DNA from: an uncultured Granulosicoccaceae bacterium
Lineage (GTDB): Bacteria > Pseudomonadota > Gammaproteobacteria > Granulosicoccales > Granulosicoccaceae
Length of the DNA stretch: 43,290 bases
NCBI GenBank assembly: GCA_938003855.1
Contig: CALKXD010000031.1
Coordinates: 1-43,290, forward strand
Direction of reading: 5' to 3'
Both the position numbers and the translations under genes were made by a program. The notes beneath the pieces are model-generated. The model did no database searches, was not told where the DNA came from, and saw nothing but the letters and a program-made list of their open reading frames with translations. Shown in pieces: positions 67 through 22,281 of the stretch (the first letter of the stretch is position 1; each line of letters starts with the position of its first letter).

Positions 67-114
67 TTTTTTATTGTAAATTGCCTGCCACAACAAGGGC
101 GACTTGCGACCAAC

Positions 115-885: not shown

Positions 886-927
886 CGACAGCAAAAATTC
901 TCTACAACCTCCAGACCAAGGACCCCC

Positions 928-1449
928 ATGCAAACCCCTGTACTCGTAGTTTCATTACTCGGCATGCTGCTTGTCAGTGCCGCCTTTATTTTGGTCATCA
1001 GGAACTCCTCCGTCCGACAGGACAATTACGCCGGGATCGTCACGCGCGGGTATAGCGTAAGACGCTGGTGGATGATTGCACTCTGTGTTGTCGGCGTGAC
1101 AGTGACGATCACTTCCCTTACCCCATTTCCGATTACTGCCAATGCAGGCACACCCCCGAAGGTAATCAAAGCCGTCGGCGGCCAGTGGTACTGGAAACTC
1201 GATAACAACACTGCGATGGCCGGGGAACCCGTGCAATTTCATGTCACCAGCGATGACGTCAATCATGGGTTTGCCATCTATAACCCGGACAATAAAATTA
1301 TTGCCCAGACGCAGGCCATGCCGGGCTACGTAAACCAACTCAACGTCACCTTTACCGAACCGGGTTTGCATCGAATTCTCTGCCTGGAGTATTGCGGCCT
1401 GGCGCACCACGGAATGATTGCCGATTTCACCGTCACTGAGGCCAACTGA
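928..1449 (+). CDS. CuA-containing subunit II of a heme-copper oxidoreductase
   Basis: Membrane-anchored electron-entry subunit of 173 residues that should carry the binuclear CuA centre facing the periplasm. Two hydrophobic helices (about residues 4-25 and 47-66) are followed by a cupredoxin domain. The aromatic stretch GGQWYWK at 84-90 is the typical electron-transfer patch. CuA ligands are present: His113 (VNHGF), then C-x3-C-x3-H-x2-M formed by Cys152, Cys156, His160 and Met163, with Glu154 between the cysteines. An AAGGA ribosome site lies five bases before ATG 928. The next gene, the catalytic subunit, starts two bases after this stop, so the two are surely co-translated. Bacterial cbb3 oxidases and classical cNOR lack CuA, so this pair is neither. 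Confidence 0.88.
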   Translation: MQTPVLVVSLLGMLLVSAAFILVIRNSSVRQDNYAGIVTRGYSVRRWWMIALCVVGVTVTITSLTPFPITANAGTPPKVIKAVGGQWYWKLDNNTAMAGEPVQFHVTSDDVNHGFAIYNPDNKIIAQTQAMPGYVNQLNVTFTEPGLHRILCLEYCGLAHHGMIADFTVTEAN

Positions 1450-1450
1450 C

Positions 1451-2911: not shown

Positions 2912-3512
2912 ACAGCGTTATTTTCTACAGGCAATTCTCTGCGCCGGGTTTGCACTCGGCGTTCTTCTCTGGCGGACCAACGGATTCAGCAACTACACCT
3001 ATGAATCCGCCAGGCGTGCCTCGATCAATAAATCGCCGACTGCACTTTCCGACTGGCAGCTGCAAAACGAATCCGGTGAGATTATCAGTTTGTCTTCTCT
3101 GCAGGGAAAGCGGTTGCTGGTGAATTTTATATTCACCCGCTGCCCGACAATCTGTCAGGCACAGGGGTCTCGCTATCAGCAACTGCAACACCGCATCGCG
3201 GAAGTCGGTGCGACAAATATAGTGTTGTTGTCTGTCAGTATCGACCCCGACTACGACACCCCCCGACGGCTGCAAAGCTACCGCGAGATTCATCGCGGCA
3301 AACCAGGCGGCTGGCAACTAACCCGCCCCGTCAGTCAGCAGCAGCTTGACACCATAATCGATGAAACCGGACTGCGCATCATTGCCGATGACATCGGCGG
3401 ATACAGCCACTCAGAATCAATCCACCTGGTAAAGCGCGGAAAGCTGGTGTCAATTAAGGACTGGGATTCAACCTCTCTGGACGCTCTGATCAATAATGCC
3501 GACCCCACCTGA
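2886..3512 (+). CDS. SCO1/SenC/PrrC family copper chaperone
   Basis: Membrane-tethered thioredoxin-fold protein (208 residues) expected to deliver copper to, or reduce, the CuA cysteines of subunit II. One N-terminal helix (about residues 13-30) is followed by the SCO core. The copper-binding CPTIC motif is at Cys86 and Cys90, and the third ligand is probably His175 in GGYSHSESIH. The start used overlaps the end of the subunit I gene by 26 bases. A GTG at 2904, overlapping by 8 bases, would still keep the helix and is a realistic alternative. Position directly after the CuA and catalytic subunits fits a dedicated maturation factor. Confidence 0.85.
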   Translation: MPACSTVSKQRYFLQAILCAGFALGVLLWRTNGFSNYTYESARRASINKSPTALSDWQLQNESGEIISLSSLQGKRLLVNFIFTRCPTICQAQGSRYQQLQHRIAEVGATNIVLLSVSIDPDYDTPRRLQSYREIHRGKPGGWQLTRPVSQQQLDTIIDETGLRIIADDIGGYSHSESIHLVKRGKLVSIKDWDSTSLDALINNADPT

Positions 3513-4164
3513 AATCTACCCGCCGCTGACACTTGATCAAGCAGACCGAACTACCCCGCTGGCAGGCCTCGCGCTTATCGCGCTATTCGCCGCCAACCTG
3601 ATACCGTCAGCCGCTCATTGGTTTGAAGCATCAATGATCAGACACATGCTGGTGCAGCTTCCTCTGCTGGCCATTGCCGGCGCGAGTCTGCTTCTGACCT
3701 CAGAACCTCTGCAACAAATGCTGCAGAAAATTGACCCCGGCGGCATTTGCGCGCTGATACTGGGCACCGGATGCATGCTCTTCTGGATGCTGCCGTTACA
3801 CCTTGACCTCGCTACCACGGACCCGTGGTTTCGCTTGTTGAAAGTAACAACCGTGCCGCTGGGGATCGGCCTGTGCTGGCTATGGGCATTTCAGCGGTCA
3901 AGCCTGCTGATGAAAATACTGATCTGCTTTGAAGGCTGGGCCTCGATATCCAGACTCGCCTGGATCTACCTGGAAAGCCCGCAACAATTGTGTAGCAGCT
4001 ACCTTATCAGTGAACAACAGCAGGCAGGAACCATTCTACTGGTAGTTTCAGTTGCTATTGCCGTGACCGCCAGCCTGTGGGGGTTATTCGGCCGCTTCGA
4101 TACCGCCCGCGTCAACCAGCCGCAATCCCGCCAAAGTGATGCGCCGGATCAGAAATCTGAGTAA
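3496..4164 (+). CDS. Multi-pass membrane protein of the CuA/oxidoreductase operon
   Basis: Integral membrane protein of 222 residues with five or six hydrophobic segments (roughly 22-42, 50-68, 84-104, 114-133 and 176-200) and a polar C-terminal tail. ATG 3496 lies inside the end of the SCO gene (17-base overlap), indicating translational coupling. The stretch RHMLVQLPLLAIAG recalls CtaG/caa3-assembly membrane proteins, which have a conserved histidine at a helix start followed by a Pro-Leu-Leu motif. The resemblance is limited to that segment. Given its neighbours, a role in copper insertion or complex assembly is the simplest inference, but I do not recognise the family with certainty. Confidence 0.65.
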   Translation: MPTPPEIYPPLTLDQADRTTPLAGLALIALFAANLIPSAAHWFEASMIRHMLVQLPLLAIAGASLLLTSEPLQQMLQKIDPGGICALILGTGCMLFWMLPLHLDLATTDPWFRLLKVTTVPLGIGLCWLWAFQRSSLLMKILICFEGWASISRLAWIYLESPQQLCSSYLISEQQQAGTILLVVSVAIAVTASLWGLFGRFDTARVNQPQSRQSDAPDQKSE

Positions 4165-4279
4165 GCAACCCCGACCTCCTAAACCACACCACACAAAGCT
4201 AGATTAACCGTCCAATGCGCGCTATGTTGACCCACACTTGCAGGTACACTACCCGCCTATCGCACTCGCTGGCTGACGC

Positions 4280-4717
4280 ATGCACATCACCAAGAATACC
4301 GACTATTCGCTTCGCACACTGATGCTTCTCGCCTTGCAACCGCCAGGAGAGCGCATCAGCATTGAGAAGATCAGCGAGACTTTCAGCATATCCCGCGGCC
4401 ACTTGATGAAAATTGTCAATCAGCTGGCAAACCTGCATCTGGTTGAAACCACCCGAGGGCGTTCCGGTGGCGTTCGCCTTGATCTCGAGTATAGCGATAT
4501 CAACATCGGTAGTGTGGTGCGACAACTGGAAGAAGTCACCCGGATTGTCAACTGCGACGACGGCCCCTGTCTATTTAAAGGCGCCTGTAATCTGGAACGA
4601 GCCTTTCAAAAAGCCAGCGACGCATTTCTACATGAACTAGACCAGTACACTCTTGCAGACCTGGTCAAACAGCGCTCGCACCTGCAGAAAATAGTAATGC
4701 ACGGACTAAGCGGCTAA
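4280..4717 (+). CDS. nsrR: NsrR-like Rrf2 family NO-sensing transcriptional repressor
   Basis: Rrf2 winged-helix regulator of 145 residues. The N-terminal half is DNA-binding (ISRGHLMKIVNQL recognition helix region, about 37-49), with Asp8 in NTDYSLR where NsrR supplies a cluster ligand. The cluster cysteines Cys92, Cys97 and Cys103 have the spacing C-x4-C-x5-C seen in E. coli NsrR, and the following FLHELDQYTLADLV segment also matches it closely. NsrR binds an NO-sensitive iron-sulfur cluster and represses NO-detoxification genes. It lies 115 bases after the membrane-protein gene on the same strand, so it may be the last gene of the operon (autoregulated) or have its own promoter. IscR is excluded by cysteine spacing and overall similarity. 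Confidence 0.82.
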   Translation: MHITKNTDYSLRTLMLLALQPPGERISIEKISETFSISRGHLMKIVNQLANLHLVETTRGRSGGVRLDLEYSDINIGSVVRQLEEVTRIVNCDDGPCLFKGACNLERAFQKASDAFLHELDQYTLADLVKQRSHLQKIVMHGLSG

Positions 4718-5012
4718 ACCCTCACTAACCAGCGACATCCACAAAGGAATAGTCTCCACGATACCCGCCATAGTGTAATTTTCGGTGGCTGAAACAGTAA
4801 ACACATAGAGCACTGGCAAAGCATTATTGCTTTTCACTACTGCCGCCGGATTGATCAATGCCCGGCCCGAAGCGGATATTAAGCACAGCGGTTTACACAA
4901 AAAACGCCAGTGTAGATACCGGCGGGTGTAAACCTTCGACGGCTGTTGTTCAGTATCAAGGGCTGCCGTGTATTACCCGCTCCGGCAGGCAATATTAAGA
5001 CAGACAAGCCTT
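4718..5012. other. Intergenic stretch without a supported gene
   Basis: Between the NsrR-like gene and the small minus-strand ORF I see no protein with recognisable composition, no clear terminator and no RNA gene. The one open frame here (minus strand, 64 codons) has no family resemblance and no ribosome site. Confidence 0.5.
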
Positions 5013-5258
5013 TTATACCCGGCCGTGTTGCCAGTAGTTGTTGGCAGCGGCCACCGTTTGAAAATGCGTCGCTATCACTTGCGATGAGGCGATCAGGCTA
5101 TCGGCACTTTCACCATATACCGGCCGTAGGCGGGCGCGTATCTCATCGGAGGGTTGCGTGTACTTTATTGCCATTCTCGACAACTTAATTGCCAACTCAT
5201 AACCGGCTTGTGCATCTACCGTCTGCAAACTCTCCAACCATACGTCTGCCATAATCAC
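5013..5258 (-). CDS. Small hypothetical protein, largely helical
   Basis: Open frame of 81 residues starting at GTG 5258, or ATG 5252 two codons later. It has no signal peptide, membrane helix or metal motif. The composition is balanced and amphipathic, as expected for a real helical protein, and the second half has a faint look of the C-terminal helices of carboxymuconolactone decarboxylase/AhpD-type proteins without their catalytic CxxC. It could therefore be a remnant of such a gene or an unrelated small protein. It lies on the same strand and downstream of the cytochrome P460-fold gene (89 bases apart), so it may share its transcript. No function is assigned. Confidence 0.4.
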   Translation of the reverse strand: MIMADVWLESLQTVDAQAGYELAIKLSRMAIKYTQPSDEIRARLRPVYGESADSLIASSQVIATHFQTVAAANNYWQHGRV

Positions 5259-5347
5259 TATTAATCCAAAGAAAAGAAGGGAAACCTTAAGGGGCGAGTC
5301 ACCAATCAGGCAACCCGCTCAGTTATCCAGTACGCGGCCGTTGTCCG

Positions 5348-5857
5348 TTACTTAAGCAGATGCTGGTACGAAAACACAAAGTTGGTATCGGTCAACGGCG
5401 CATGGCAGGCGAGACAGGCATTGAGATCTTTATCTGCCTTGGCACCATCGGGTTTAAATGCCGCCATCTCCCAATTGCCGTTGCGCAAACCGTCAGGGTA
5501 TTGCTCACCCCACCCTTCCTCACGCTGCATCACGGCGACCAATGCAAACTTGTCACTGATTCTTTGACCAAGCGATGATGTGATCACAGCACCTTCTGCA
5601 TCAAGTTTGGCTTTATAGACTTCTGCTACCAATATAGATCCGTAAGGTAGCTTGCCATCGTCGCCCGGTCCCTGCATAGCGATATCATTGGCGAACAGCC
5701 GGATCACCTGATCGGGATTCTGCGTGCGATCCAGACTCAGGTAGTTGGTGTAGGTGGCACGATAGTTTTCGGGGAAAGCTATTTTATCGTCCTCTGCGTG
5801 TACTGTTGCAGTGACGGCAAGTAATGCCGCACCAACAAGCGTCGCAATTCTGTGCAT
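5348..5857 (-). CDS. Cytochrome P460-family (P460/c'-beta fold) periplasmic c-type cytochrome
   Basis: Exported mono-heme cytochrome of 169 residues. ATG 5857 is chosen over the upstream in-frame ATG because GAGGA lies just before it and it begins a clean signal peptide (cleavage near Ala21). Family features are LPxNYR-like FPENYR near 28-33, GNWEMAAF at 127-134, and the heme motif CLACH (Cys148, Cys151, His152) followed by a VFSYQHLL C-terminus. Cytochrome P460 oxidises hydroxylamine/NO; the related cytochromes c'-beta bind NO. Aligned by eye to my memory of Nitrosomonas P460, the heme cross-linking lysine (in GTVTVKEL) is replaced by Ala78 (GSILVAEV). A c'-beta-like NO-binding role is therefore more likely than hydroxylamine oxidation. 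Its position beside the NO cluster agrees. Confidence 0.8.
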   Translation of the reverse strand: MHRIATLVGAALLAVTATVHAEDDKIAFPENYRATYTNYLSLDRTQNPDQVIRLFANDIAMQGPGDDGKLPYGSILVAEVYKAKLDAEGAVITSSLGQRISDKFALVAVMQREEGWGEQYPDGLRNGNWEMAAFKPDGAKADKDLNACLACHAPLTDTNFVFSYQHLLK

Positions 5858-5981
5858 GTGTTTTTCCTCTGTGAAAGTGAGTGATAGATACAACACAAAA
5901 AAACCTGACGGTACGGACCCTCTGCTACATCGGATTCACCTGATCCGCAGCCGCAGTATAAACTCATTAACACTATATGTC

Positions 5982-6056: not shown

Positions 6057-6656
6057 ATGGGTACCACCAACCGAATCACCGATTTGCTCAACCGGAGCCC
6101 GATGACAATCCAGGAGCTGGCCACTGAACTTGGCGTCTCGCGCAACTCCGCTCATTTGCAGGTGCGCAAGCTGGAGGCCGCCGGCATTGTCGAAAAGCAG
6201 GAACTGCGGATGTCGAACAGCGCCGGCAAACCGGCCTACCAGTACCAGACAACTGCGGGCAATGAAGACGTCCATTCGGTGGCCTACCGCCCGGTGCTGG
6301 ACGTGCTGATGCAAACCATCAGCGCTGATCTGCCGCCTGCGGAACGCTTAACCCTGTTGGAGAAAACCGGCCGCTCGCTGGCCAGAGCAAGTGGCCTGCA
6401 ACCCGGCAGCGATACCACCGCCGACATCCGCAAATCAGTCGATGCGGTCAATGCGCTCGGCGCAACCGCCGAGCTGATCACCAAAGGCAAAACCCACTTC
6501 GTCAGCTGCCATAGTTGTCCGGTCGCCACCCTGGTACACCGCGAGCCCATGACCTGCAAACTGGTGGCCGCTTTTTTTGCCGAAGCATCCGGGAAAAAGG
6601 TATCGGTACAGTGCAAAAAAAACAGCACCGTCGTGTGCGGATTTAAATTCAGCTAG
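6057..6656 (+). CDS. HTH transcriptional regulator with Cys-rich (probable Fe-S) C-terminal domain, SufR/ArsR-like
   Basis: Regulator of 199 residues. Residues about 5-65 form a winged helix-turn-helix (MTIQELATELGVSRNSAHLQ, then a basic wing with KPAYQYQ). The C-terminus holds five cysteines, Cys151 and Cys154 (CHSC), Cys167, Cys186 and Cys194, in an arrangement reminiscent of the SufR-type iron-sulfur sensor domain. This suggests redox, iron or NO sensing. It is transcribed away from the P460-fold cytochrome gene and upstream of the oxygenase block, so it could control either. No strong ribosome site is visible before ATG 6057. The family call is by domain architecture; the ligand is not known. 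Confidence 0.7.
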   Translation: MGTTNRITDLLNRSPMTIQELATELGVSRNSAHLQVRKLEAAGIVEKQELRMSNSAGKPAYQYQTTAGNEDVHSVAYRPVLDVLMQTISADLPPAERLTLLEKTGRSLARASGLQPGSDTTADIRKSVDAVNALGATAELITKGKTHFVSCHSCPVATLVHREPMTCKLVAAFFAEASGKKVSVQCKKNSTVVCGFKFS

Positions 6657-6798: not shown

Positions 6799-7662
6799 AT
6801 GTCACTCTGCAACGACCCGGTCATACGTAACCAATGGCACGTCATCTGTGCTCTGGAAGATATCAGCCCACGCAACACCCACACGACCCTGCTCGGTGAA
6901 TCTGTCAGCTTTGCAGCTAACACGGATACCACGGGGGCGCGAGCGTGGCGAACCGATGCACCGGACACCAGTCTGCCCGTCACTTGTGCCTACGGCTATC
7001 TGTGGACTTGTCTTGGCACTGCAGACAAACCACTGTTCGCCCTGCCCGAGTATGCCGAAGCAGATCGGCGCAATGTATGCGCGGCTACAGTAGGCGTGCG
7101 GGTATCTGCACCGCGTGCGGTGGAGAACTTCCTCGACATGGGGCATTTCCCCTATGTGCACACGGGTATTTTAGGTGAGCAACCTCACACCGAAGTACGT
7201 GAGTACGACGTCACCGTCGAAGAGTCAACCAACGATGTCATCGCGACTCGCTGTCGGTTTTATCAACCCATGGCGGCCGCCGGTGCCGACGGCGGCATGC
7301 TGGTGGAGTACATCTACCGGGTGCCCCACCCGTACTGCTCAGTGTTGTATAAATCGTGTCCGTCAGATGAATCACGACTCGATGTTATCGCGCTGTTTGT
7401 GCAGCCGGTCACCGAGGAAACTATCCGTGCGCACGCGCTGGTCAGTGTGATCGATGAAAACAGTACCGATCTGTCAATCCGAATGTTTCAGCAAACCATC
7501 TTCGGGCAGGACAAACCCATACTGGAAAACCAGTTTCCGAAACGCCTGCCACTCGATCCGCGTGCCGAAACTCCTATACGTGCAGATAAATCCGCCATTG
7601 TGTATCGCCGCTGGCTGAGTGACCTTGGCATCACCTACGGCGTCATTCCAGCTGCCGCATGA
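6799..7662 (+). CDS. Rieske-less mononuclear non-heme iron oxygenase, NdmC-like N-demethylase catalytic subunit
   Basis: Catalytic subunit (287 residues) of a Rieske-type oxygenase family that lacks its own Rieske cluster. The N-terminus keeps the family opening (NQWHVICALEDI) and a short beta-rich remnant, but the C-x-H and C-x2-H ligand pairs are absent. The iron site is intact: Asn110-x2-Asp113-x2-His116-x4-His121, with the third ligand probably Asp238 in IFGQDKPILENQ. In caffeine-degrading Pseudomonas, NdmC has this truncated form, works with NdmD (which supplies the missing Rieske domain) and NdmE (GST-like), and removes the N7 methyl of 7-methylxanthine as formaldehyde. The next genes here are exactly those partners, and this gene overlaps the NdmD-like gene by four bases. 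The substrate is inferred. Confidence 0.83.
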   Translation: MSLCNDPVIRNQWHVICALEDISPRNTHTTLLGESVSFAANTDTTGARAWRTDAPDTSLPVTCAYGYLWTCLGTADKPLFALPEYAEADRRNVCAATVGVRVSAPRAVENFLDMGHFPYVHTGILGEQPHTEVREYDVTVEESTNDVIATRCRFYQPMAAAGADGGMLVEYIYRVPHPYCSVLYKSCPSDESRLDVIALFVQPVTEETIRAHALVSVIDENSTDLSIRMFQQTIFGQDKPILENQFPKRLPLDPRAETPIRADKSAIVYRRWLSDLGITYGVIPAAA

Positions 7663-9461
7663 CAGAGCAGACCTTAAAAACTCTCGATCGTGCCCGCGCC
7701 GCCCGACAATGGCATCCCGTGGCAACCTCCGATGACCTGCGCATGCGCCATGTCTATCACGGGCAGATACTTGGGCGGGAGCTGGCGGTATGGCGTGCCG
7801 ACGATGGCCACGTCAATGTCTGGGAAAACCGCTGCCTGCATCGCGGTGTACGATTATCGATAGGGATCAATGATGGCCATGAGCTCGCCTGCCAGTATCA
7901 CGGCTGGCGCTACGCAAACCGAACCGCCGGATGTACCTATATACCGGCACATCCGGCCGATGCACCAGCCAGAACCATCTGCAACAACACCTACCCGGCA
8001 ACAGAGCGCTACGGATTGGTCTGGACTGGCGAAGCTCCCGAGGGCACAGCACCGGACGCACCGGAATTACAGCACGCCGGTAACCATTTACTGGTGCTGC
8101 GGTCACTGCCAGTCAACGCCCCGCTACACCTGACCGCCGGGCACTTGGCAGACTATACGTTTTACCGGTCAGACCACACCCGGCCAGCGACTCAGGTATC
8201 GACCCACCTGCGGCGCGCCGGAGAATTTCAGGTCGCGGTCGACTGGACCGATGAAAACGGTACATCCGCTCTGGTGTTTTTCCTGCAACCGACGGATAAC
8301 CATCGAACCTCAGTGCATGCCGTATTAGCCACATCAAAGCCCCCCGACAATCCGCTGCAACGGTTGAAAGATCACAACTTTGCCATGTCGCTACTGCGTG
8401 ACCGGATCGAACAGGCCGCCCGGCAACACCCGACGCCCGCGGCGTTTACCGTCGCCAGCCCGCGTGTCAGTGAAGCGCTGGCCACACTGCCAAAGCTTGC
8501 CGCCACTGGACGCAAAGCACCTCTGCGCGTAGTGGTCAAAAGTATTCGCGATGTTGCTACTGAGATCAAAGCGTTCGAACTGATCTCCGTCGATACACAA
8601 CTGCCGACCTTCCAGCCCGGCGCCCATATCGATGTGCATCTTGCCAACGCACAGGTCAGGCAGTATTCACTCACCAACGCACCGGGACAAACTGACCGCT
8701 ATATTATTGCCGTCAAACGCGAGGCCGACGGTAACGGCGGCTCGGCCTTTTTGCACCAGTCCGTCCGGGTTGGAGATACCCTGGCCATTTCACTGCCGCG
8801 CAATAATTTTCCGCTGCGACGCGATGCAGTCAACACTTTGCTGATCGCCGGGGGCATCGGAATCACTCCGTTACTGGCAATGGCGCAGACACTGAAAAGT
8901 GCCGATCATCCTTTTCACCTGCACTATTTTGTGCAGGACCAATCTCACGCAGCGTTTCCGCAGTTACTGTCGACATTCGGCACGCACATCAGTATGCACA
9001 CAGGACTAAGTCCTGAGCAAACCCGCACCACCCTCGCAAACACACTGGAAGGCTACAAACCCGCCAGCCATGTGTATCTCTGCGGACCGGCTGCCATGCT
9101 CAGCGCTGCGCGCGACCTGGCCTACCGCATGAACTGGCCTGACGAAGCAATTCATTTCGAATTCTTTAAAAACACCACAGATGTGACCACCGACCAGGCG
9201 TTTACTGTCGAACTGGCGCGCTCCGGGCTGACGCTGACGGTAGAATCAGGGCAGACGCTGCTCCACACACTGCGCACCAACGGCGTCGAGCTACCCTCGT
9301 CCTGTGAACAGGGCGCCTGTGGCACATGCCGGGTTGGCGTGCTGGACGGTGAGCCACTGCATCAGGACGTCTATCTATCAGACGCAGAACACCAACGCAA
9401 CGACTGCCTGATGACTTGCGTCTCACGCGCCCGATCAGAAAAACTGGTGCTGGATATCTAG
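7659..9461 (+). CDS. NdmD-like Rieske-FMN-ferredoxin reductase fusion
   Basis: Electron-transfer partner of 600 residues with three modules. Residues about 15-130 are a Rieske domain (Cys59-x-His61 and Cys78-x2-His81 in CQYHGW). Residues about 140-280 look like a shrunken oxygenase domain without iron ligands. From about 285 there is a phthalate-dioxygenase-reductase-type module: flavin motif RQYSLTN, NAD-binding IAGGIGITPLL, CGPAAML, then a plant-type [2Fe-2S] ferredoxin with Cys549-x4-Cys554-x2-Cys557-x29-Cys587. This is the domain order of NdmD, whose extra Rieske domain serves NdmC. Ordinary oxygenase reductases do not carry a Rieske domain. NADH electrons would pass from FMN through the ferredoxin and Rieske centres to the neighbouring catalytic subunit. 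Confidence 0.87.
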   Translation: MTEQTLKTLDRARAARQWHPVATSDDLRMRHVYHGQILGRELAVWRADDGHVNVWENRCLHRGVRLSIGINDGHELACQYHGWRYANRTAGCTYIPAHPADAPARTICNNTYPATERYGLVWTGEAPEGTAPDAPELQHAGNHLLVLRSLPVNAPLHLTAGHLADYTFYRSDHTRPATQVSTHLRRAGEFQVAVDWTDENGTSALVFFLQPTDNHRTSVHAVLATSKPPDNPLQRLKDHNFAMSLLRDRIEQAARQHPTPAAFTVASPRVSEALATLPKLAATGRKAPLRVVVKSIRDVATEIKAFELISVDTQLPTFQPGAHIDVHLANAQVRQYSLTNAPGQTDRYIIAVKREADGNGGSAFLHQSVRVGDTLAISLPRNNFPLRRDAVNTLLIAGGIGITPLLAMAQTLKSADHPFHLHYFVQDQSHAAFPQLLSTFGTHISMHTGLSPEQTRTTLANTLEGYKPASHVYLCGPAAMLSAARDLAYRMNWPDEAIHFEFFKNTTDVTTDQAFTVELARSGLTLTVESGQTLLHTLRTNGVELPSSCEQGACGTCRVGVLDGEPLHQDVYLSDAEHQRNDCLMTCVSRARSEKLVLDI

Positions 9462-9499
9462 TGAACTTCCACCTGCCTCGCACCACTCCTATAGCGCCG

Positions 9500-9545
9500 C
9501 TGATGAACGCACCCGATTTCGCTTTTTACGCACCGCGTTCATCAG
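9500..9545. repeat. Inverted repeat between reductase and GST-like genes
   Basis: Two perfect 11-base arms, CTGATGAACGC (9500-9510) and its complement (9535-9545), flank a 24-base loop in the 133-base gap. No T-tract follows on either strand, so it is unlikely to terminate. It may be an mRNA stability element or a protein-binding site. Confidence 0.5.
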
Positions 9546-9594
9546 GCCGCAAAGCAACATCGTCGATTAATCCCTTGACTGCTGCCGCCCTGAG

Positions 9595-10236
9595 ATGATC
9601 ACACTCTACGATTATGAGCTGTCCGGTAACTGCTATAAAATTCGGTTATTGCTGTCCATACTGGGTATTAAATATCACAGCCATACAGTCGAGTTCTACC
9701 CGGCCGCAGAGCATAAAGCTCCCTGGTTCCGACAAATAAACCCCCTGGGTCAATTGCCCGTGTTACAAGATGACGACTACACGCTGTGCGATTCACAGGC
9801 CATTATGGTTTATCTGGCCAGCCGCTATGACAGCGGCAATAGCTGGTATCCACGCGACGACCCGCAACGCCTGGGATCCGTCTCACGGTGGCTGGCTTTT
9901 GCCGACAGCATCACCAACAGCGCTTCAAGCGCCAGACTGGTTGAAGGTTTTTTCTACGACTTCGATGCCGTCGCCTGCCGGGCAGAAGCCCACAGGCTGT
10001 TTCGTATTCTAGACGAGCACTTATGGTTTAACGCAAAGTCAGGTCACCACTGGATTGTCACTGGCGACAGCCCCACCATCGCCGACATCGCCTGCTTCCC
10101 CTATATAATGTTATCGGAAGAAGGTAGTATTTCGCGGCAGGACTACCCGGCCATCCGACGCTGGTCCGATCACGTCAAGCGGATACCGGGCTTTACCGTG
10201 ATGCCCGGCATTTTCCCAGCGGGGCCGGCGCAATGA
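9595..10236 (+). CDS. Glutathione S-transferase-like protein, NdmE-like
   Basis: GST-fold protein of 213 residues. The N-terminal thioredoxin-like domain shows LYDYELSGNCYKIRLLLSIL, the cis-Pro segment GQLPVLQDDD and CDSQAIMVYLA. The all-helical C-terminal domain has the conserved DSPTIADIACFPY cap motif. In Pseudomonas putida, NdmE is a GST-like protein needed in the NdmCDE complex rather than a detoxifying enzyme, and this gene follows the NdmC- and NdmD-like genes directly. Its stop overlaps the start of the ABC ATPase gene (ATGA-type overlap), tying the demethylase genes and the importer into one transcript. GST membership is firm; the structural role in the demethylase is inferred from gene order. 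Confidence 0.8.
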   Translation: MITLYDYELSGNCYKIRLLLSILGIKYHSHTVEFYPAAEHKAPWFRQINPLGQLPVLQDDDYTLCDSQAIMVYLASRYDSGNSWYPRDDPQRLGSVSRWLAFADSITNSASSARLVEGFFYDFDAVACRAEAHRLFRILDEHLWFNAKSGHHWIVTGDSPTIADIACFPYIMLSEEGSISRQDYPAIRRWSDHVKRIPGFTVMPGIFPAGPAQ

Positions 10237-11765
10237 CCGCACTGCTTGAATTGCGCGGTGTCTCAAAGATCTTCCCTTCGGTGGTTGCTAACGACGCCGT
10301 TGATCTGGTCATTGAAGAAGGCGAAATACACGCCATCCTCGGTGAAAACGGAGCGGGTAAGTCGACACTGATGAAGATGATCTACGGCGTCAGTCAACCG
10401 GACGCCGGTGAGATCTTCTGGCGCGGTGAGAAAGTCACCGTGCGCAGCCCGGCCCATGCACGGTCCCTGCGTATCGGTATGGTGTTTCAGCATTTTTCAT
10501 TGTTCGAATCACTCACGGTGGCTGAAAATATATCGCTGGCTGTGAGCGGCTCGCTGACAGATTTATCGCAACGCATACTACAGGTAGGCCGCGACTTCGG
10601 CCTGCCGGTTGCGCCCGACACGCTGGTGCACTCACTGTCAGTCGGCGAGCGCCAGCGTGTCGAGATTATTCGTTGCATACTGCAGAATCCACAATTACTG
10701 ATCATGGACGAACCCACATCAGTACTGCCACCGCAAGGTGTAGAACAGTTGTTCAAAACACTGCGAAAACTCAAAAGTGAAGGCTGCAGTATTTTATACA
10801 TCAGCCATAAGCTCGACGAAATTCGTGCCCTCTGCGATAAAGCCACTATTCTTCGTGATGGCAAAGTAGTAAACACTGCGATTCCTGCAGAGGAAAGCGC
10901 CCGGTCACTGGCGCACATGATGATCGGTCGGGACATCCCGCACGCAACCCATGCCGACGCCCGCAGCGATGGCGACACACTGCTGCATATAGACGATGTG
11001 TCCTATACACCGGCCGATCCGTTTGCCACCACTCTGCACAATGCGTCGCTGTCGGTACGGGCCGGTGAGATCGTCGGCATCGCCGGTGTCTCCGGCAACG
11101 GCCAGAATGAATTGATGCGGCTTATATCCGGCGAAGACCTGCTCGACCCGGATCTCGGGCAGATTTACATCAAGGGCAAGCCGGTTAACCGGCTGGACCC
11201 TGTAAAACGACGTCGCATGGGACTGGCCTTTGTGCCGGAGGAACGCCTCGGTCGCGGTGCTGTGCCGGAACTATCACTGGGGCAGAACAGCCTGCTCACG
11301 GGGCTGGAAACCGGCCTGGCCGGACTGGGCCTGATCCGCTTCGGCAAGGTAAGGCAACGCGCCGTCGACTGCATTAAAAATAACGATGTCCGCTGTGGCG
11401 GCCCGATGGCTCTGGCCGGCAGTCTATCCGGAGGCAACCTGCAAAAATATATCGTCGGACGGGAAATGGCACTGGCCCCCTCACTATTGGTGTTGTCGCA
11501 ACCCACCTGGGGCGTTGATGTTGGAGCCGCATCAGGTATCCGTCAGGCACTGATCAATCTTCGCGATCAAGGCACAGCCGTGCTGGTGGTATCGGAAGAA
11601 CTGGAAGAACTATTTGAAGTGACCGACCGGCTGCACACGATTTATCATGGACACTTGTCGCCCGCACTCAAAACCCGCGAGACCAATGTGACACAAGTGG
11701 GCGAATGGATGACCGGCCAGTTCCTCAACAACGACATGCAATCCAATCTCAAGGTCAGCGGCTGA
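10233..11765 (+). CDS. ABC transporter ATP-binding protein, purine/nucleoside (BMP family) importer
   Basis: Double-domain ATPase of 510 residues. The first domain has an intact Walker A (GENGAGKST, about 38-46), a Q-loop (MVFQHFSLF), a signature LSVGERQRVEI and Walker B LLIMDEPTS. The second has the degenerate Walker A GVSGNGQNE usual in this family, the FVPEERLGRGAV segment and the signature LSGGNLQK. Its Walker B region reads LLVLSQPTWGVDVG, where Ser-Gln replaces the acidic pair, so the second site is probably inactive. This matches the YufO/NupO type that serves the BMP-family (PnrA-like) nucleoside importers. It overlaps both neighbours by a few bases. Confidence 0.88.
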   Translation: MTALLELRGVSKIFPSVVANDAVDLVIEEGEIHAILGENGAGKSTLMKMIYGVSQPDAGEIFWRGEKVTVRSPAHARSLRIGMVFQHFSLFESLTVAENISLAVSGSLTDLSQRILQVGRDFGLPVAPDTLVHSLSVGERQRVEIIRCILQNPQLLIMDEPTSVLPPQGVEQLFKTLRKLKSEGCSILYISHKLDEIRALCDKATILRDGKVVNTAIPAEESARSLAHMMIGRDIPHATHADARSDGDTLLHIDDVSYTPADPFATTLHNASLSVRAGEIVGIAGVSGNGQNELMRLISGEDLLDPDLGQIYIKGKPVNRLDPVKRRRMGLAFVPEERLGRGAVPELSLGQNSLLTGLETGLAGLGLIRFGKVRQRAVDCIKNNDVRCGGPMALAGSLSGGNLQKYIVGREMALAPSLLVLSQPTWGVDVGAASGIRQALINLRDQGTAVLVVSEELEELFEVTDRLHTIYHGHLSPALKTRETNVTQVGEWMTGQFLNNDMQSNLKVSG

Positions 11766-12847
11766 TGCTACGACTCGTACCCCGCACAGAGCAATCAGTC
11801 GCAGCACAGATCATGGTGCCACTGGCAGCCATTGGACTCACCCTGCTGGCAGGCTCAATCATGTTTACCCTATTGGGTAAATCACCGATAGCCGCATTCC
11901 ATGCCTTTTTTATAGAACCATTAACTACGCGCTATGGCATTGGCGAAGTACTGCTGAAAACCGGACCGTTGTTGCTGATTGCACAGGGTCTGGCGATTGG
12001 CTTTCGCGCCCGCGTCTGGAACATCGGTGCTGAAGGACAACTGTTACTGGGCGCTATCGCATCGGGCACCATAGCCCTGCACTTCAACAACACAGACTCC
12101 GCCTGGCTATTACCTTCTATGGTGGTTGCCGGAACGCTGGCCGGTGCCGCATGGGCGGCTATTGCCGCGTGGCTGCGCACGCGCTTTAACGCCAACGAAA
12201 TTCTTGTCACCTTTATGTTGTCGAGCATCGCGCTGCAGTTACTCTACTATCTGGTGAGTGGCCCGCTTCGCGACCCGATGGGAATGAACTTTCCACAGTC
12301 AGCCCTGTTTGAAGACGCCGCCCTGTTTGAGCCTCTCATCAGTGGCACTCGCGTTAACACATCGCTGTATCTGGCACTGGCCGTTACTGTGGTGGCCTGG
12401 GTGTTTGTACAACGCAGTGTGCCGGGCTATAAATTGCTGGTCAGTGGACTGGCACCACGCGCCGCCCGCTACGCAGGGTTTGCAGAAAACCGCGCCGTTT
12501 GGGCCGGCCTGCTGATTGGCGGGGCCGCCGCTGGTATGGCCGGTGTCGGTGAAGTCGCAGGCCCACTGGGTCTGCTGCAGCGCACTATCTCTCCCGGTTA
12601 CGGCTTTGCGGCTATTATTGTCGCGTTTCTAGGCGGACTGCACCCCATCGGCATTTTATTCGCCGCGTTTTTCATGGCGCTGATTTACGTTGGCGGCGAC
12701 ATGTCGCTGGTGACGGTGGGCATCCCGAATGCTTCAACCACTATTTTTCAAGGCATGCTGCTGGTCTTTTATCTCGCCTGTTATCTCTTTGTGCATCACC
12801 GTATCAAACGCGTCGGTGCCCCGACGGCACCGCAAGGGAGCCACTGA
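11765..12847 (+). CDS. ABC transporter permease 1, purine/nucleoside (BMP family) importer
   Basis: Inner-membrane permease of 360 residues with about nine to ten hydrophobic helices. The ATG at 11765 overlaps the ATPase stop (TGATG), so it is preferred to the upstream in-frame ATG at 11705 inside the ATPase gene. Recognisable segments of the BPD_transp_2 family are GFRARVWNIGAEGQLLLGAI near the N-terminal third and RFNANEILVTFMLSSIA. The family imports purines and nucleosides (YufP/NupP, RnsC type). The next permease starts in the stop codon of this one. Confidence 0.87.
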   Translation: MLRLVPRTEQSVAAQIMVPLAAIGLTLLAGSIMFTLLGKSPIAAFHAFFIEPLTTRYGIGEVLLKTGPLLLIAQGLAIGFRARVWNIGAEGQLLLGAIASGTIALHFNNTDSAWLLPSMVVAGTLAGAAWAAIAAWLRTRFNANEILVTFMLSSIALQLLYYLVSGPLRDPMGMNFPQSALFEDAALFEPLISGTRVNTSLYLALAVTVVAWVFVQRSVPGYKLLVSGLAPRAARYAGFAENRAVWAGLLIGGAAAGMAGVGEVAGPLGLLQRTISPGYGFAAIIVAFLGGLHPIGILFAAFFMALIYVGGDMSLVTVGIPNASTTIFQGMLLVFYLACYLFVHHRIKRVGAPTAPQGSH

Positions 12848-13770
12848 TGCTCGACTCCCTTATCTATGTGCTGGCCGGAACACTTGCCGCGGCTACACCA
12901 CTGATCTTCGCCGCTATGGGGGAAGTCGTGGCAGAAAAATCCGGAGTGCTGAACCTGGGTGTCGAAGGCATGATGGCCACTGGTGCTGCCACCGGATTTG
13001 TCGTCGCCACAGTGACCGGTTCCTATATCGGCGGGTTTGCCGCCGCCGCTGCCGTCAGTGCGGTGTTGTCCCTGGTGTTTGCGATACTCGCGCTGTTTTT
13101 TCTCGCCAATCAGGTCGCAGCCGGTCTGGCCGTTGGCATTCTCGGCCTGGGTGTATCCGCACTGATCGGCAAACAGCACGAAGGCCACACGATTGATCCA
13201 CTGGACAAGGTCGATCTCGGTTTTTTAAGTGACCTGCCGGTACTCGGTAAAGTGCTGTTCGCGCAGGACATCATGGTGTACGCCGGCATTGCCAGCATTT
13301 TTCTGATCTGGCTGCTGCTGAATCGCTCCAAAGCAGGACTGGTCATACGCGCCATAGGCGAAAACCCGCTGGCGGCAAATTCTATCGGCTACCCGGTGAT
13401 CGCAATCCGTCTTTGCTGTGTGCTGTTCGGCGGCGCTATGGCGGGCATTGGCGGCGCTTACCTCACCCTCGCCTACACACCGCTGTGGGCAGAAGGACTG
13501 GTTGCCGGACGCGGCTGGATCGTCGTCGCACTGGTGGTGTTTGGCACCTGGCGCGCCGGAAGAATTGCCCTGGGCGCGTACTTGTTCGGCGCGGTATCAT
13601 TAATTGAATTGTTTATTCAGGGACAGGGGTTTGCAATCCCGTCGCAACTGATGTCTGCTGCACCCTACATTGTCACCATTATTATTCTGGCTGTGATCTC
13701 GCGTGATTCACGCATTATCCGGCTAAACCATCCGGCCTCGCTAGGGCAGCCCTACACCCGCGGCGAGTAA
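12847..13770 (+). CDS. ABC transporter permease 2, purine/nucleoside (BMP family) importer
   Basis: Second permease of the importer, 307 residues, nearly all hydrophobic helices. The N-terminus shows the hallmark AEKSGVLNLGVEGMMATGA, and RAIGENPLAANSIGYPV lies in the cytoplasmic coupling region; both are typical of YufQ/NupQ. The ATG overlaps the preceding stop by one base. With permease 1 it would form the heterodimeric channel fed by the periplasmic protein encoded next. Confidence 0.87.
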   Translation: MLDSLIYVLAGTLAAATPLIFAAMGEVVAEKSGVLNLGVEGMMATGAATGFVVATVTGSYIGGFAAAAAVSAVLSLVFAILALFFLANQVAAGLAVGILGLGVSALIGKQHEGHTIDPLDKVDLGFLSDLPVLGKVLFAQDIMVYAGIASIFLIWLLLNRSKAGLVIRAIGENPLAANSIGYPVIAIRLCCVLFGGAMAGIGGAYLTLAYTPLWAEGLVAGRGWIVVALVVFGTWRAGRIALGAYLFGAVSLIELFIQGQGFAIPSQLMSAAPYIVTIIILAVISRDSRIIRLNHPASLGQPYTRGE

Positions 13771-13795
13771 CCGAATTCACCATGAGAGAGTAAAA

Positions 13796-14881
13796 GTGAA
13801 ATCACTACACCAACTGATCGCAGCCACGACACTGGCGATAATGACTGTCTTCGGGCTGTCACCCGCCCTTGCCGCCGATAAACTTAAAATCGGCTATATC
13901 TATCCATCACCGGCCGGTGATGTCGGCTGGGCTCACGAACTCGACGAAGGCCGCAAAGCGATTGAGGCCGCGTTCGGCGACAAGGTCGAGTCAATTGTTG
14001 TTGAAAACATCCCCGAGGGTCCGGACGCCGCACGCATCATGAATCAGTTTGCCGCTGAAGGCGCCAAAATGATCATGCTCGGTTCGTTCGGCTATATGAA
14101 CGACGGCTTAAAGCTGGCCAAGCGCTACCCGGACATCAAAATTATTCACGCCAGCGGCTATAAGCTGGCTGATAACATGGGCAACTTCCAAACCCGCAAT
14201 TACGAAAGCGCCTATCTTGCCGGCATGGCAGCCGGGTATGTCACCAAAACCAATACCGTCGGTATGGTGGCAGCTTATGCGATTCCTGAAGTCGTCGGTA
14301 TTATCAACGCCTTTACCCTGGGTGCACAGCAAACCAACCCTGATGCCACCATGAAAGTAGTCTGGCTTAACTCATGGTTTGACCCGAGCAAGGCACAGGA
14401 GTCTGCACGGTCACTGATATCACAGCAGTCAGATGTTATTTTTTCAATCTATCAGGACACGCCATCGGTAGTCACCGTGGCTGAAGAAGAAGGCGTCTAT
14501 GTGGTTAACACCAGCTCCGACATGAAAAAATACGCCCCCACAAAACTACTGGTATCCATGCAGATCAGCTGGGCAAAGCACTTTGTTGAACAGACTCAGG
14601 CGGTACTGGACGGTACGTTTAAAGGCACTGCATTCTGGGGTGGTATGGCTGACGAGGCGGTATCAATGGAAAGCTGGAGTGACGATCTGACCGCAGAACA
14701 GAAAACCGCTCTGACCGCCAAGGTCGATGAAATAGCCGCCGGTAACTTCCACCCGTTCAACGGCCCTGTCGTTGACCAGGACGGAGCGGTGAAAGTCGCC
14801 GAAGGCGAGACCCTGAGCGATGGTGATTTGCTGGGCATTAACTGGCTGGTAAAAGGCGTAGAAACCAAACTACCCAACTGA
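13796..14881 (+). CDS. BMP family (PnrA-like) substrate-binding protein
   Basis: Periplasmic binding protein of 361 residues. GTG 13796 is the start: GAGAG precedes it by a few bases and it opens a signal peptide ending PALAADKL (cleavage near residue 26). The mature part has BMP-family features: IGYIYPSPAGDVGWAHELDEGR at the first strand, FAAEGAKMIMLGSFGY, NYESAYLAGMAAGYVTKT and a C-terminal NPFNGPV-like HPFNGPVVDQDG. Family members bind purine nucleosides or free purines. No lipobox cysteine is seen, so it is soluble rather than a lipoprotein. A strong hairpin follows the gene, consistent with higher levels of the binding protein than of the enzyme downstream. Confidence 0.87.
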   Translation: MKSLHQLIAATTLAIMTVFGLSPALAADKLKIGYIYPSPAGDVGWAHELDEGRKAIEAAFGDKVESIVVENIPEGPDAARIMNQFAAEGAKMIMLGSFGYMNDGLKLAKRYPDIKIIHASGYKLADNMGNFQTRNYESAYLAGMAAGYVTKTNTVGMVAAYAIPEVVGIINAFTLGAQQTNPDATMKVVWLNSWFDPSKAQESARSLISQQSDVIFSIYQDTPSVVTVAEEEGVYVVNTSSDMKKYAPTKLLVSMQISWAKHFVEQTQAVLDGTFKGTAFWGGMADEAVSMESWSDDLTAEQKTALTAKVDEIAAGNFHPFNGPVVDQDGAVKVAEGETLSDGDLLGINWLVKGVETKLPN

Positions 14882-14893
14882 CCCTTGCTATAC

Positions 14894-14921
14894 GCTTTGC
14901 CCTGCCATCGCAGGGCAAAGC
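14894..14921 (+). other. Intercistronic hairpin after the binding-protein gene
   Basis: A perfect 11-base-pair stem (14894-14904 with 14911-14921) encloses a six-base loop, 13 bases after the binding-protein stop. No T-tract follows, so readthrough into the deaminase gene is expected. It probably protects the upstream mRNA 3' end or partially attenuates transcription. Confidence 0.65.
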
Positions 14922-14936
14922 CTCCAACTGACACTG

Positions 14937-16328
14937 ATGCCCCCCCCATTGACTAGCGACACTGAACGGTTTTTTCTAGGAAAATTCATGCACACGCCCG
15001 GTGCATCGAATTTACAGGTCCTGCGTGACACACTGATCGCCGTCGACCGCAACGGCATCATCAGTTCTGTCACCAACGCTGACAGCCAGCACTACACAGC
15101 ATTGCTGCAACAAGCGGAAAACAGCCACCAACTCACCTCGCTGACGGACACGCAGTTCATGCTGCCCGGCATGGTGGATCTGCACATTCACGCCCCGCAA
15201 TGGCCGCAACTGGGAAAGAACCTGCACTTGCCATTGCAGGACTGGCTGATGGACTGCACTTTCCCGCTGGAAGCAAAATACGCAGACACTGAGTTTGCCG
15301 ACACTATGTATAGATCATTAGTCGATACCCTGATCAGCAACGGCACCACCAGTGCCGTCTATTTTGCCACCATCCACCGGCAGGCCACCCAGATACTGGC
15401 TGACATCTGCGTCGAGAAAGGCCAGCGCGCCTGGGTCGGGCGTGTGGCGATGGACGATCCGGATCAGTGCCCCGACTACTACCGTGATCAAAGTACGCGT
15501 ACCGGACTGGCGCAGACCGAGCAATTGATTCACAGCATTCGCGCCATCCCCGGCAACGAAAACGGGCGTGTGCAGCCGATTATCACTCCCCGATTTATAC
15601 CCGCCTGTACCGACGATATGCTGCAGGGTCTGGGCAAACTGGCCAGTCGGTACAACTGCCCTATTCAGACACACTGCTCAGAGAGTGACTGGGAGCATCA
15701 GTATGTCATCGACCGCCTGGGCAAGACTGACACAGAAGCTCTGCGCGACTTCGGGTTACTGACGCGTAAAACGGTGCTGGCGCACTCCAACCTGCTCACC
15801 GACACCGACATGGACACTATTGCCGCACATCAATCCGGTATCGCGCACTGTCCGCTGTCCAACAATTATTTTGCCGGTTGCGTTTTCCCGCTTCGTGCTG
15901 CGTTGGACAAAGGCCTGAATGTGGGCCTGGGCACCGATATCTCCGGTGGGCCGAGCGCGTCGATGTTTGATAGCTGCAAGCACGTTATCAGCGCGTCGCG
16001 AATGCTGGAAAGCGGCACCAATCCAGACCTCGCCGCCAACCAGCGAGGCGTGCCCGACACCCGCTCCGATTTTATAGAAGCCTTTTATCTGGCCACGGCA
16101 GGTGGCGGGCAGGTACTGGATCAGAACATCGGTAAGTTTGAACCCGGCTATCACTTCGATGCGCTGTTAGTAGAAACAAATGCAAGCGGCAGCAATCTGC
16201 AGGTATTCGCAGCACTCGACAGTGACGAAGATATATTTCAAAAAACCCTTTACGGCGTCACCCGCGCCAATATTCACTCTGTGTGGATCGACGGCAAGCC
16301 AGTCGGCACCAGCCAACAGGCCACCTGA
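14937..16328 (+). CDS. guaD: Guanine deaminase-like amidohydrolase
   Basis: Metal-dependent amidohydrolase of 463 residues that hydrolytically deaminates a purine, classically guanine to xanthine. Guanine-deaminase signatures are clear: PGMVDLHIHAPQ (metal-binding HxH), PLQDWLMDCTFPLEAKY, TSAVYFATIH, TPRFIPACT, the catalytic-site segment QTHCSESDWEH, VLAHSNLL, GIAHCPLSNNYF and GLGTDISGGPSASM with the metal-binding Asp. Length is normal. It lies 55 bases beyond the binding-protein gene, separated only by a hairpin, so it belongs to the demethylase/importer operon. If the imported substrate is 7-methylguanine, this enzyme could act before or after N-demethylation to give xanthine. The deaminase family is firm; preference for a methylated base is a guess. 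Confidence 0.86.
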   Translation: MPPPLTSDTERFFLGKFMHTPGASNLQVLRDTLIAVDRNGIISSVTNADSQHYTALLQQAENSHQLTSLTDTQFMLPGMVDLHIHAPQWPQLGKNLHLPLQDWLMDCTFPLEAKYADTEFADTMYRSLVDTLISNGTTSAVYFATIHRQATQILADICVEKGQRAWVGRVAMDDPDQCPDYYRDQSTRTGLAQTEQLIHSIRAIPGNENGRVQPIITPRFIPACTDDMLQGLGKLASRYNCPIQTHCSESDWEHQYVIDRLGKTDTEALRDFGLLTRKTVLAHSNLLTDTDMDTIAAHQSGIAHCPLSNNYFAGCVFPLRAALDKGLNVGLGTDISGGPSASMFDSCKHVISASRMLESGTNPDLAANQRGVPDTRSDFIEAFYLATAGGGQVLDQNIGKFEPGYHFDALLVETNASGSNLQVFAALDSDEDIFQKTLYGVTRANIHSVWIDGKPVGTSQQAT

Positions 16329-16426: not shown

Positions 16427-16448
16427 GCCCGTGCGGATGGGCCTTTTT
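16427..16448 (+). terminator. Weak rho-independent terminator candidate
   Basis: A short stem (16427-16431 with 16438-16442, including one G-T pair) is followed by CTTTTTAG. It is about 100 bases after the guanine deaminase stop, a sensible end for the purine operon, but the stem is short. Confidence 0.4.
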
Positions 16449-18712: not shown

Positions 18713-19996
18713 CTAGACTATCCCGCCGCCAGCCCCGGAAATCGCCGGCCGTTCAGAGGCGACCGCTGCACGATACCCTGACTCACGATAAGCGCCTACC
18801 GGGTCTATCGCACCACCGCTTCGCAATCGGGACTGCTGCAGAATCGGATCTACGTTGGTCCGAAACGCCTGCTTAAGCGTCTGCGATGCCATCAGGGCGT
18901 CGTTGTCGGCCTGATACGCAGACAGCGCCTGACGGTCAACCAGCATGGCCTGCAGGTAGGCACGCTGCACTTCCACCGCGCTGGTCATCAGGCTTTCAAT
19001 CGGGTCTGTCACATTGTGGGACTGATCAAGCATATAGGCCGGCCTGAATGCATCACCTTGCTGCCGTTCTATATCAACCAGCTCGTTGAATACCAGAAAC
19101 AATCGATAGGGATCTATTGCTCCGGAGTCGAGATCATCGTCACCGTATTTTGAATCATTAAAGTGAAAACCACCCAGCTTGCCGAACCGCGCCAACCGCG
19201 AAACGATCATCTCTATATTGACATTGGGCGCATGGTGCCCCAGGTCAACCAGGCAACTGGCCTTCGGGCCCAGCTCTTTGGCGATAAGATAATTGCTACC
19301 CCAGTCCTGTACCACAGTCGAGTAAAACGCCGGCTCATACATTTTGTGCTCGGTAAACAACTGCCAGTCATCCGGCAGTGCGGCATACACCTGCGTCATT
19401 GCATCCAGGTAGCGATCAAACTGCTTACCCATATGGGTTTGGCCGGGAAAATTTGAACCATCGCCAACCCACACCGTTAACGCCTGTGAACCGAGCGCCC
19501 GACCAATCTCGATACAACGAATATTATGCGCAACCGCCTGCTCACGCGTTGCCGCATCTGTGTGTGATAAAGAACCAAATTTATAGGAGCGCGGCTGATC
19601 ACTTTGATCCTGAAACGTATTGGAGTTCATCGCATCAAAGCCGAGCCCAAGTTTATCGGCCTGCTCACGCAGTGCGGCCGGATCTGCATCGTCCCAGGGG
19701 ATATGCAGCGAAACAGTGGGCGTCGCCTGCGTCAGTTGCTGAATCACTCCGCAGTCGGCGAGCTTATCAAACACATGGCGCGGCTCTCCCCGGCCGGGGA
19801 AACGTGCAAAGCGGGTACCGCCAGTGCCCACACCCCACGAAGGTATCGCCACACCGAACCGACCGGCACTTGCCGTCAGTGATTCTATATCTATATTGCT
19901 GCGCTGCAACTGCCCGCCAAGCGCGGCATAGTCGGCATCCAGGGCCGCAAGACGTGATCTGTTGTGCTGTTCGATTACATCGGGGTCAATTTGCAT
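18713..19996 (-). CDS. rhaI: L-rhamnose isomerase (RhaI type)
   Basis: Cytoplasmic metal-dependent isomerase of 427 residues converting L-rhamnose to L-rhamnulose. It is of the Pseudomonas/Rhizobium RhaI type, not E. coli RhaA. TIM-barrel metal-site segments are visible: FTEHKMYEPAFYST, CLVDLGHHAPNVNIE, GGFHFNDSKYGDDD and later MLDQSHNVTDP. The N-terminal FGVAIPSWGVGTGGTRFARFP is also typical. The gene starts nine bases after the stop of the bifunctional aldolase gene on the same strand, so the two form an operon running away from the DeoR regulator. Confidence 0.93.
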   Translation of the reverse strand: MQIDPDVIEQHNRSRLAALDADYAALGGQLQRSNIDIESLTASAGRFGVAIPSWGVGTGGTRFARFPGRGEPRHVFDKLADCGVIQQLTQATPTVSLHIPWDDADPAALREQADKLGLGFDAMNSNTFQDQSDQPRSYKFGSLSHTDAATREQAVAHNIRCIEIGRALGSQALTVWVGDGSNFPGQTHMGKQFDRYLDAMTQVYAALPDDWQLFTEHKMYEPAFYSTVVQDWGSNYLIAKELGPKASCLVDLGHHAPNVNIEMIVSRLARFGKLGGFHFNDSKYGDDDLDSGAIDPYRLFLVFNELVDIERQQGDAFRPAYMLDQSHNVTDPIESLMTSAVEVQRAYLQAMLVDRQALSAYQADNDALMASQTLKQAFRTNVDPILQQSRLRSGGAIDPVGAYRESGYRAAVASERPAISGAGGGIV

Positions 19997-20005
19997 GAGC
20001 CATTC

Positions 20006-22108: not shown

Positions 22109-22157
22109 GAGTGCCATTCCTGAAGATTCGATTGCGACAGAATTGCGCTATTTTCAA

Positions 22158-22170
22158 GCATTGTCAATCA
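22158..22170. promoter_or_regulatory. Candidate DeoR-family operator, copy 1
   Basis: GCATTGTCAATCA matches the complement of the second site (22215-22227) at 11 of 13 positions, centred about 57 bases from it in the gap between the divergent rhaD and regulator genes. It lies about 50 bases upstream of the rhaD start. Confidence 0.45.
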
Positions 22171-22214
22171 TTTTCAGTGACATGGAAATTATTTTGATCG
22201 GTAATGATTGTTTG

Positions 22215-22227: not shown

Positions 22228-22281
22228 ACCGCTGCAGCGTATTATCCGAAGAACACGCATCGATGGAAATACGGGGGCATC

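Follow-up and report, generated by a model that had tools for sequence, protein, structure and literature searches.

An ndmCDE-type gene set joined to a purine importer and a guanine deaminase in Granulosicoccaceae: a candidate route for the salvage of N-methylated guanine

The stretch of DNA analysed here (the window, 43,290 nt) belongs to the genome of a marine Granulosicoccaceae bacterium, assembled to 6.8 Mb in 312 contigs. Open reading frames and Pfam and NCBIfam scans place eight co-directional genes on its + strand at 6799–16328. The first encodes an ndmC-like oxygenase catalytic subunit in which the Rieske domain is absent (6799–7662; Pfam VanA_C, 1.5e-21), followed by an ndmD-like reductase with Pfam Rieske, FAD/NAD and Fer2 domains (7659–9461) and an ndmE-like GST-family protein, presumed to be a structural subunit (9595–10236; GST_N/GST_C), which is 59% identical to the NdmE of the caffeine clusters of Pseudomonas putida MT178 and Paraburkholderia caffeinilytica. 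The ATPase of an ABC-type purine importer (10233–11765; ABC_tran, 4.4e-50), two permeases (11765–12847 and 12847–13770; both BPD_transp_2) and a predicted BMP-family periplasmic purine-binding protein (13796–14881; Bmp) come next, and the last gene encodes a guanine deaminase, GuaD (14937–16328), the second and divergent copy in this genome. Overlaps of 4 nt join ndmC to ndmD and ndmE to the ATPase gene, and overlaps of 1 nt join the ATPase gene to permease 1 and permease 1 to permease 2. An earlier note had proposed this set of NdmC, NdmD, NdmE, BMP importer and GuaD, and all eight genes lie as it placed them; all but one of its boundaries were retained, permease 1 starting at 11765 rather than 11705 by homology to a related locus (L019). 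The same note spoke of a 'fused' operon, which is right in the sense of operonic linkage via overlaps and not in the sense of gene fusion.

A gap of 133 nt separates ndmD from ndmE here; in the closest relative it is about 10 nt. An inverted repeat with 11-bp arms (CTGATGAACGC/GCGTTCATCAG) lies in this gap at 9500–9545; it is absent from the closest relative and occurs in its exact form once in the genome. A weak terminator-like stem was located on the + strand 3' of the operon (16427–16442), such matches being only about twofold above chance (19 sites found vs 10.3 expected). No known RNA, riboswitches included, was found in the window. The HTH gene at 6057–6656 was considered as a regulator of the operon and rejected: it is operon-adjacent in the closest relative only, tblastn on the other relatives found no counterpart close to their operons, and its own neighbours are a globin-like gene and a cytochrome P460 gene. 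A likely nitric-oxide or nitrosative-stress cluster occupies 37–5896, with a formate/nitrite-type transporter, a COX2/COX1-type oxidase or NO reductase, SCO1, an Rrf2 regulator (best NCBIfam match NsrR, 138 bits, below the cut-off), cytochrome P460 and then a cysteine-rich SufR-like HTH regulator, whose counterpart in L019 stands beside a globin gene.

The NdmC-like protein has a vestigial Rieske domain without cluster ligands and an intact mononuclear iron site (H116, H121 and D238, with D113 as bridge). Residues E109, N110, D113, H116, H121 and D238 are kept in 34 of 34 NdmC homologues, and the Rieske motif CxH..CxxH is found in none of the 34. Plasmid-borne caffeine clusters of P. putida MT178, P. 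caffeinilytica and Komagataeibacter nataicola were used as references; the NdmC of the window is 45–48% identical to theirs and 62–63% identical to the NdmC of Sinorhizobium meliloti and Mesorhizobium. A quick tree of 160 oxygenases, with SH-aLRT support only and warnings for some long branches, separates all NdmC sequences from NdmA/B and HpxD as a single clade (97). Inside it, the caffeine-type NdmC (99) nest together with two further NdmC groups, and those of Granulosicoccaceae (11 sequences) make up a clade of their own (100). The oxygenase therefore groups with the NdmC of caffeine clusters and not with Rieske-less enzymes acting on non-purines. NdmD of the window is 36–39% identical to the NdmD of the reference clusters and aligns end to end with that of P. 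putida (36% over 610 columns), in support of the proposed NdmCDE homology.

Over residues 138–342 the NdmA of P. putida MT178 shares 92% identity with the solved NdmA of CBB5. A search of the Granulosicoccaceae genome with NdmA residues 138–342 matched the NdmC gene only. No relative of NdmA or NdmB was thus found in the genome, as the earlier note had stated, and the locus does not hold the ndmABCDE set of a caffeine cluster. The sole further VanA_C protein of the genome is encoded on a different contig. The NdmCDE system of P. putida CBB5 carries out N7-demethylation of 7-methylxanthine to xanthine (PMC4408171), and the two systems share the three gene types and their order relation, the Rieske-less oxygenase with its NdmC clade, the reductase with an extra Rieske domain and the GST-like subunit. 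Here, in contrast to CBB5, ndmA and ndmB are absent, an ABC importer replaces the NCS2 permease, a guanine deaminase is part of the operon and frmA lies outside it.

Four domains make up the NdmD-like protein: Rieske, an iron-less helix-grip domain (about residues 130–260), FAD/NAD and a plant-type 2Fe-2S domain. All four Rieske ligands (C59, H61, C78 and H81) are kept in 46 of 46 homologues. The second domain has the strand and helix order of the NdmC catalytic domain, with the iron ligands all missing. Plain sequence similarity between this middle domain and NdmC is weak (15 of 300 shuffles scored as high), so profile and fold comparisons were needed. By profile, NdmC 9–163 aligns to NdmD 14–213 with 98% probability and with one long gap, at the cluster-binding segment of NdmD. 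The AF2 model of NdmC (pLDDT 83.7) matches SxtT/GxtA over its whole chain (Z 28.8) and NdmA/B with Z 23; that of NdmD 1–290 (pLDDT 82.5) matches GxtA 3–291 (Z 19.6, 238 residues), beyond the Rieske domain and across the whole of GxtA. SxtT/GxtA are the best solved-structure match of NdmC and of the N-terminal half of NdmD, and unlike these they hold the Rieske and iron centres in a single chain and hydroxylate carbon. The N-terminal half of NdmD (7659–8528) thus has the shape of a complete Rieske-oxygenase module, complementary to NdmC. On these models a complementary decay of two whole oxygenase modules fits better, NdmC having a dead Rieske and a live iron site and the N-terminal half of NdmD a live Rieske and a dead iron site. 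If true, such reciprocal decay would account for the need of NdmCDE for its unusual reductase. NdmC and NdmD would then form a complex in which electrons pass from the NdmD Rieske centre to the NdmC iron.

The binding protein was compared with two purine-binding relatives, AtzT (6pi5; 40% identity, phmmer 7.9e-82) and a Brucella protein (3s99; 41%, 1.7e-85) which was modelled with adenine. AtzT binds guanine at 110 nM, and all heteroatoms of the unmethylated base are saturated in its pocket (PMC6834077). The putative pocket of the window protein consists of W45, S97, F98, E165, W194, Y219 and D221. Five of these seven positions are conserved or conservatively replaced: Ser97, Phe98, Glu165 and Trp194 are unchanged from AtzT, and Tyr45 is replaced by Trp as in Brucella, so that the aromatic sandwich, Ser97, Phe98 and Glu165 are shared with both relatives. 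The other two differ, AtzT Asn218/Asn220 corresponding to Tyr219/Asp221 here and to His/Asp in Brucella. Since these two positions differ and AtzT saturates the guanine heteroatoms, a methyl group may find no room unless the pocket is altered, which is a point against a methylated ligand. The seven positions read WSFEWYD in 20 of 20 GuaD-type operons of Granulosicoccaceae, WSFEWAD in 8 of 8 clusters of a second variant with an 8-oxoguanine-deaminase-type enzyme, and WSFDW-D in 43 rhizobial importers. We infer that the purine frame is retained and that one wall position varies by cluster type, which would suit different purine ligands. The phmmer matches and the pocket comparison together make a purine-type binding protein probable, as first proposed.

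The deaminase of the operon reaches 405 bits with TIGR02967 (equivalog cut-off 375.4) and retains the HxH, Gln, TPRF, His, Glu, His and Asp motifs, which it shares with human GDA (2uz9). In its tree the protein falls in a distinct clade (100/100) whose neighbours are guanine deaminases of human, yeast and clostridia and not amidohydrolases of non-guanine type, in agreement with the guanine type first assigned to it. The other GuaD of the genome is canonical (572 bits), adjoins XdhC and is 28% identical to the operon copy. Among 23 family genomes, all 8 that have the operon encode an operon-type GuaD, vs 2 of the 15 that lack it (p 9e-5, an approximate value given related genomes and gaps in metagenome-assembled genomes). 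The operon subfamily carries an HCSES-DW loop, and its Ser and Trp changes were tried as a sign of a methylated substrate and dropped: they are common to the GuaD of Salmonella, Aerococcus, Latilactobacillus and Niallia. These changes being subfamily-wide, GuaD alone lends no support to a methylated substrate. The subfamily is also found without NdmC, both in Firmicutes and on a Salmonella plasmid, and in Latilactobacillus it stands alone beside a purine permease. On a Niallia taxi megaplasmid (L185, 3212–5536) an operon-type GuaD has in its vicinity an NCS2 permease and a full-length Rieske oxygenase that resembles NdmA as well as NdmC.

Such occurrences bear on a different division of labour, in which NdmCDE would scavenge 7-methylxanthine or another methylxanthine and GuaD would serve ordinary guanine taken up by the same importer. 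The action of CBB5 NdmCDE on 7-methylxanthine (PMC4408171) agrees with it, as do the preference of AtzT for guanine and the pairing of this GuaD subfamily with a purine permease alone in Latilactobacillus. We nevertheless consider it improbable: NdmA/B are absent from the genome, a marine source of methylxanthines is not obvious, and a canonical GuaD is already present, yet the second one tracks the operon.

Among 84,980 species genomes scanned, 343 close NdmC relatives were found, and the best 80 of these 343 were kept; of those that bear a name, 'Chromatiales bacterium (ex Bugula neritina AB1)' comes closest to the operon. Neighbours were counted at the 54 loci with full flanks among the best 80. 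NdmD adjoins NdmC in 54 of 54 and NdmE in 53 of 54; a BMP importer is present at 34 of the 54, while 11 have a class III formaldehyde dehydrogenase and 8 an operon-type GuaD. Linkage of NdmCDE to the importer and GuaD is therefore repeated across relatives, and every Granulosicoccaceae relative with a long enough contig has the order C-D-E-ATPase-permease-permease-BMP-GuaD. As the gene order is repeated in relatives, the operon is not a chance assembly.

In rhizobia the importer and a GntR regulator are divergent, GuaD is not adjacent in most ndmCDE loci, and a second NdmC copy lies upstream of the first. Such copies, about 50% identical to NdmC, exist in about 43 loci (e.g. L036, 14077–14946) and precede it in most rhizobial clusters, the two NdmC sharing one NdmD and one NdmE; the duplication possibly reflects action on two different methyl positions or the assembly of a mixed trimer. 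One locus (L061) has two NdmC, NdmD, NdmE, FrmA and GuaD in sequence, with BMP divergent. In Nocardioides immobilis (L084) the order is PbuX/OHCU-decarboxylase fusion-XdhA-XdhB-XdhC-GuaD-NdmC-NdmD-NdmE, and in Rhizobium tumorigenes it is BMP-ABC-NdmC-GuaD, with an NdmC of a different subgroup and divergent Rieske and GST genes. The second variant, in Granulosicoccaceae and rhizobia, combines a free Rieske protein, NdmC, NdmE, the 8-oxoguanine-deaminase-type amidohydrolase and a BMP importer; its Rieske protein (L028–L034, L040 and L043) has about 220 aa and no reductase domain. In Hansschlegelia quercus (L072, 243–13287) a BMP importer, allophanate hydrolase and NdmCDE stand side by side. The Devosia neighbours were discarded as a substrate clue, consisting only of an Ldh_2 dehydrogenase with sub-threshold similarity to AllD.

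What speaks most strongly for a purine substrate is that the oxygenase is met again and again beside deaminases and importers of purines. Demethylation of a non-purine N-heterocycle (triazine, pterin or alkaloid), with the purine neighbourhood a coincidence, would accord with the versatility of Rieske oxygenases and with the binding of 2-hydroxyatrazine by AtzT as well; it is very improbable, given that three independent lineages have GuaD, xanthine dehydrogenase and purine importers next to these genes. For demethylation the strongest argument is the formaldehyde dehydrogenase gene beside ndmE: rhizobial orthologues carry a class III ADH gene 30–150 nt behind ndmE, the arrangement was counted at 18 loci with both genes on one strand, and the two of these 18 that were checked both exceed the TIGR02818 cut-off. 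These neighbours in orthologues back the N-demethylation predicted for the window. They count against a Mo-independent ring hydroxylase that would oxidise C8 of guanine or xanthine in a plain guanine-to-urate route without demethylation. HpxD, a purine-acting Rieske relative, surfaced in the NdmC search, the sister clusters combine the oxygenase with an 8-oxoguanine-deaminase-type enzyme, and the nearest solved structures, SxtT/GxtA, are saxitoxin ring hydroxylases, all of which would suit ring oxidation. HpxD is, however, a full-length Rieske oxygenase in a separate clade outside the NdmC family, whereas the caffeine-cluster NdmC fall inside it and NdmC has no Rieske motif; a second xanthine hydroxylase would also be redundant beside the Xdh in this genome and inside the Nocardioides operon. 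We regard ring hydroxylation as unlikely.

The operon, judged by its sequence and gene context, probably serves the salvage of an N-methylated guanine, with 7-methylguanine as the leading candidate, or of a close methylpurine. In the pathway that we infer, with its substrate, methyl position, step order and complex formation, the methylated base would enter through the ABC importer with its BMP binding protein. Electrons from NADH would reach the Rieske centre of NdmD by way of its FAD and plant-type 2Fe-2S cluster and from there the iron of NdmC, which would hydroxylate the N-methyl group with release of formaldehyde. GuaD would convert the guanine-type to the xanthine-type base before or after demethylation, and the xanthine product would pass to the xanthine dehydrogenase of the genome. 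Formaldehyde would be handled by a glutathione-dependent dehydrogenase encoded outside the operon; true XdhA/XdhB and FrmA are encoded in the genome, and no FrmA gene lies in the operon at 6799–16328. If the N7 specificity of NdmCDE is kept, 7-methylguanine would either lose its methyl group first or be deaminated to 7-methylxanthine. According to a report cited in PMC11651626, guanine deaminase does not accept 1- or 9-methylguanine, which mildly favours demethylation before deamination. With NdmC at 45–48% and NdmD at 36–39% identity, the substrate may differ from that of the caffeine enzymes, and 7-methylguanine as the specific substrate is a tentative choice. Slightly more doubtful is the full proposal of a dedicated 7-methylguanine salvage, spread in Granulosicoccaceae, rhizobia and some actinobacteria, that acts through the reciprocally decayed oxygenases NdmC and NdmD N-terminal half.

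RNA turnover and DNA repair keep releasing methylated guanines, 7-methylguanine included. No 7-methylguanine demethylase, nor a microbial catabolic route or operon for such bases, was found in the open-access literature. Clusters homologous to ndmCDE and with no function assigned had been described before from Sinorhizobium, Mesorhizobium, Klebsiella and other genera (Summers et al. 2013, cited in PMC4408171) and are the closest described relatives of the operon; a second NdmC copy is common in them, and the cited account does not mention the importer, formaldehyde dehydrogenase or guanine deaminase context. The novelty first claimed for the operon is narrowed accordingly: NdmCDE chemistry and the homologous clusters listed in 2013 are known, and the importer-deaminase combination is undescribed in the open-access literature. 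New here are this importer-deaminase operon, its recurrence with formaldehyde and xanthine dehydrogenases, and the reciprocal-decay architecture. If the proposed salvage is true, several hundred unassigned ndmCDE-type gene sets would acquire a natural role and the caffeine N7-demethylase a likely ancestor outside caffeine metabolism. Salvage is directly testable in S. meliloti, which is genetically tractable and carries the genes on pSymA.

Elsewhere in the window, a 656-aa protein at 40772–42742, without NCBIfam match, shows by eye trimeric-autotransporter-head-like repeats and, behind them, a C-terminus that resembles PDZ. An ABC importer is encoded at 30671–35168, its binding protein resembling the 2-aminoethylphosphonate-type PhnS2 below the cut-off. 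An L-rhamnose catabolic cluster at 18713–29083 comprises a rhizobial-type isomerase and a RhaD aldolase-dehydrogenase, both above the NCBIfam cut-offs, together with a DeoR regulator, a sugar ABC importer and an FGGY kinase.
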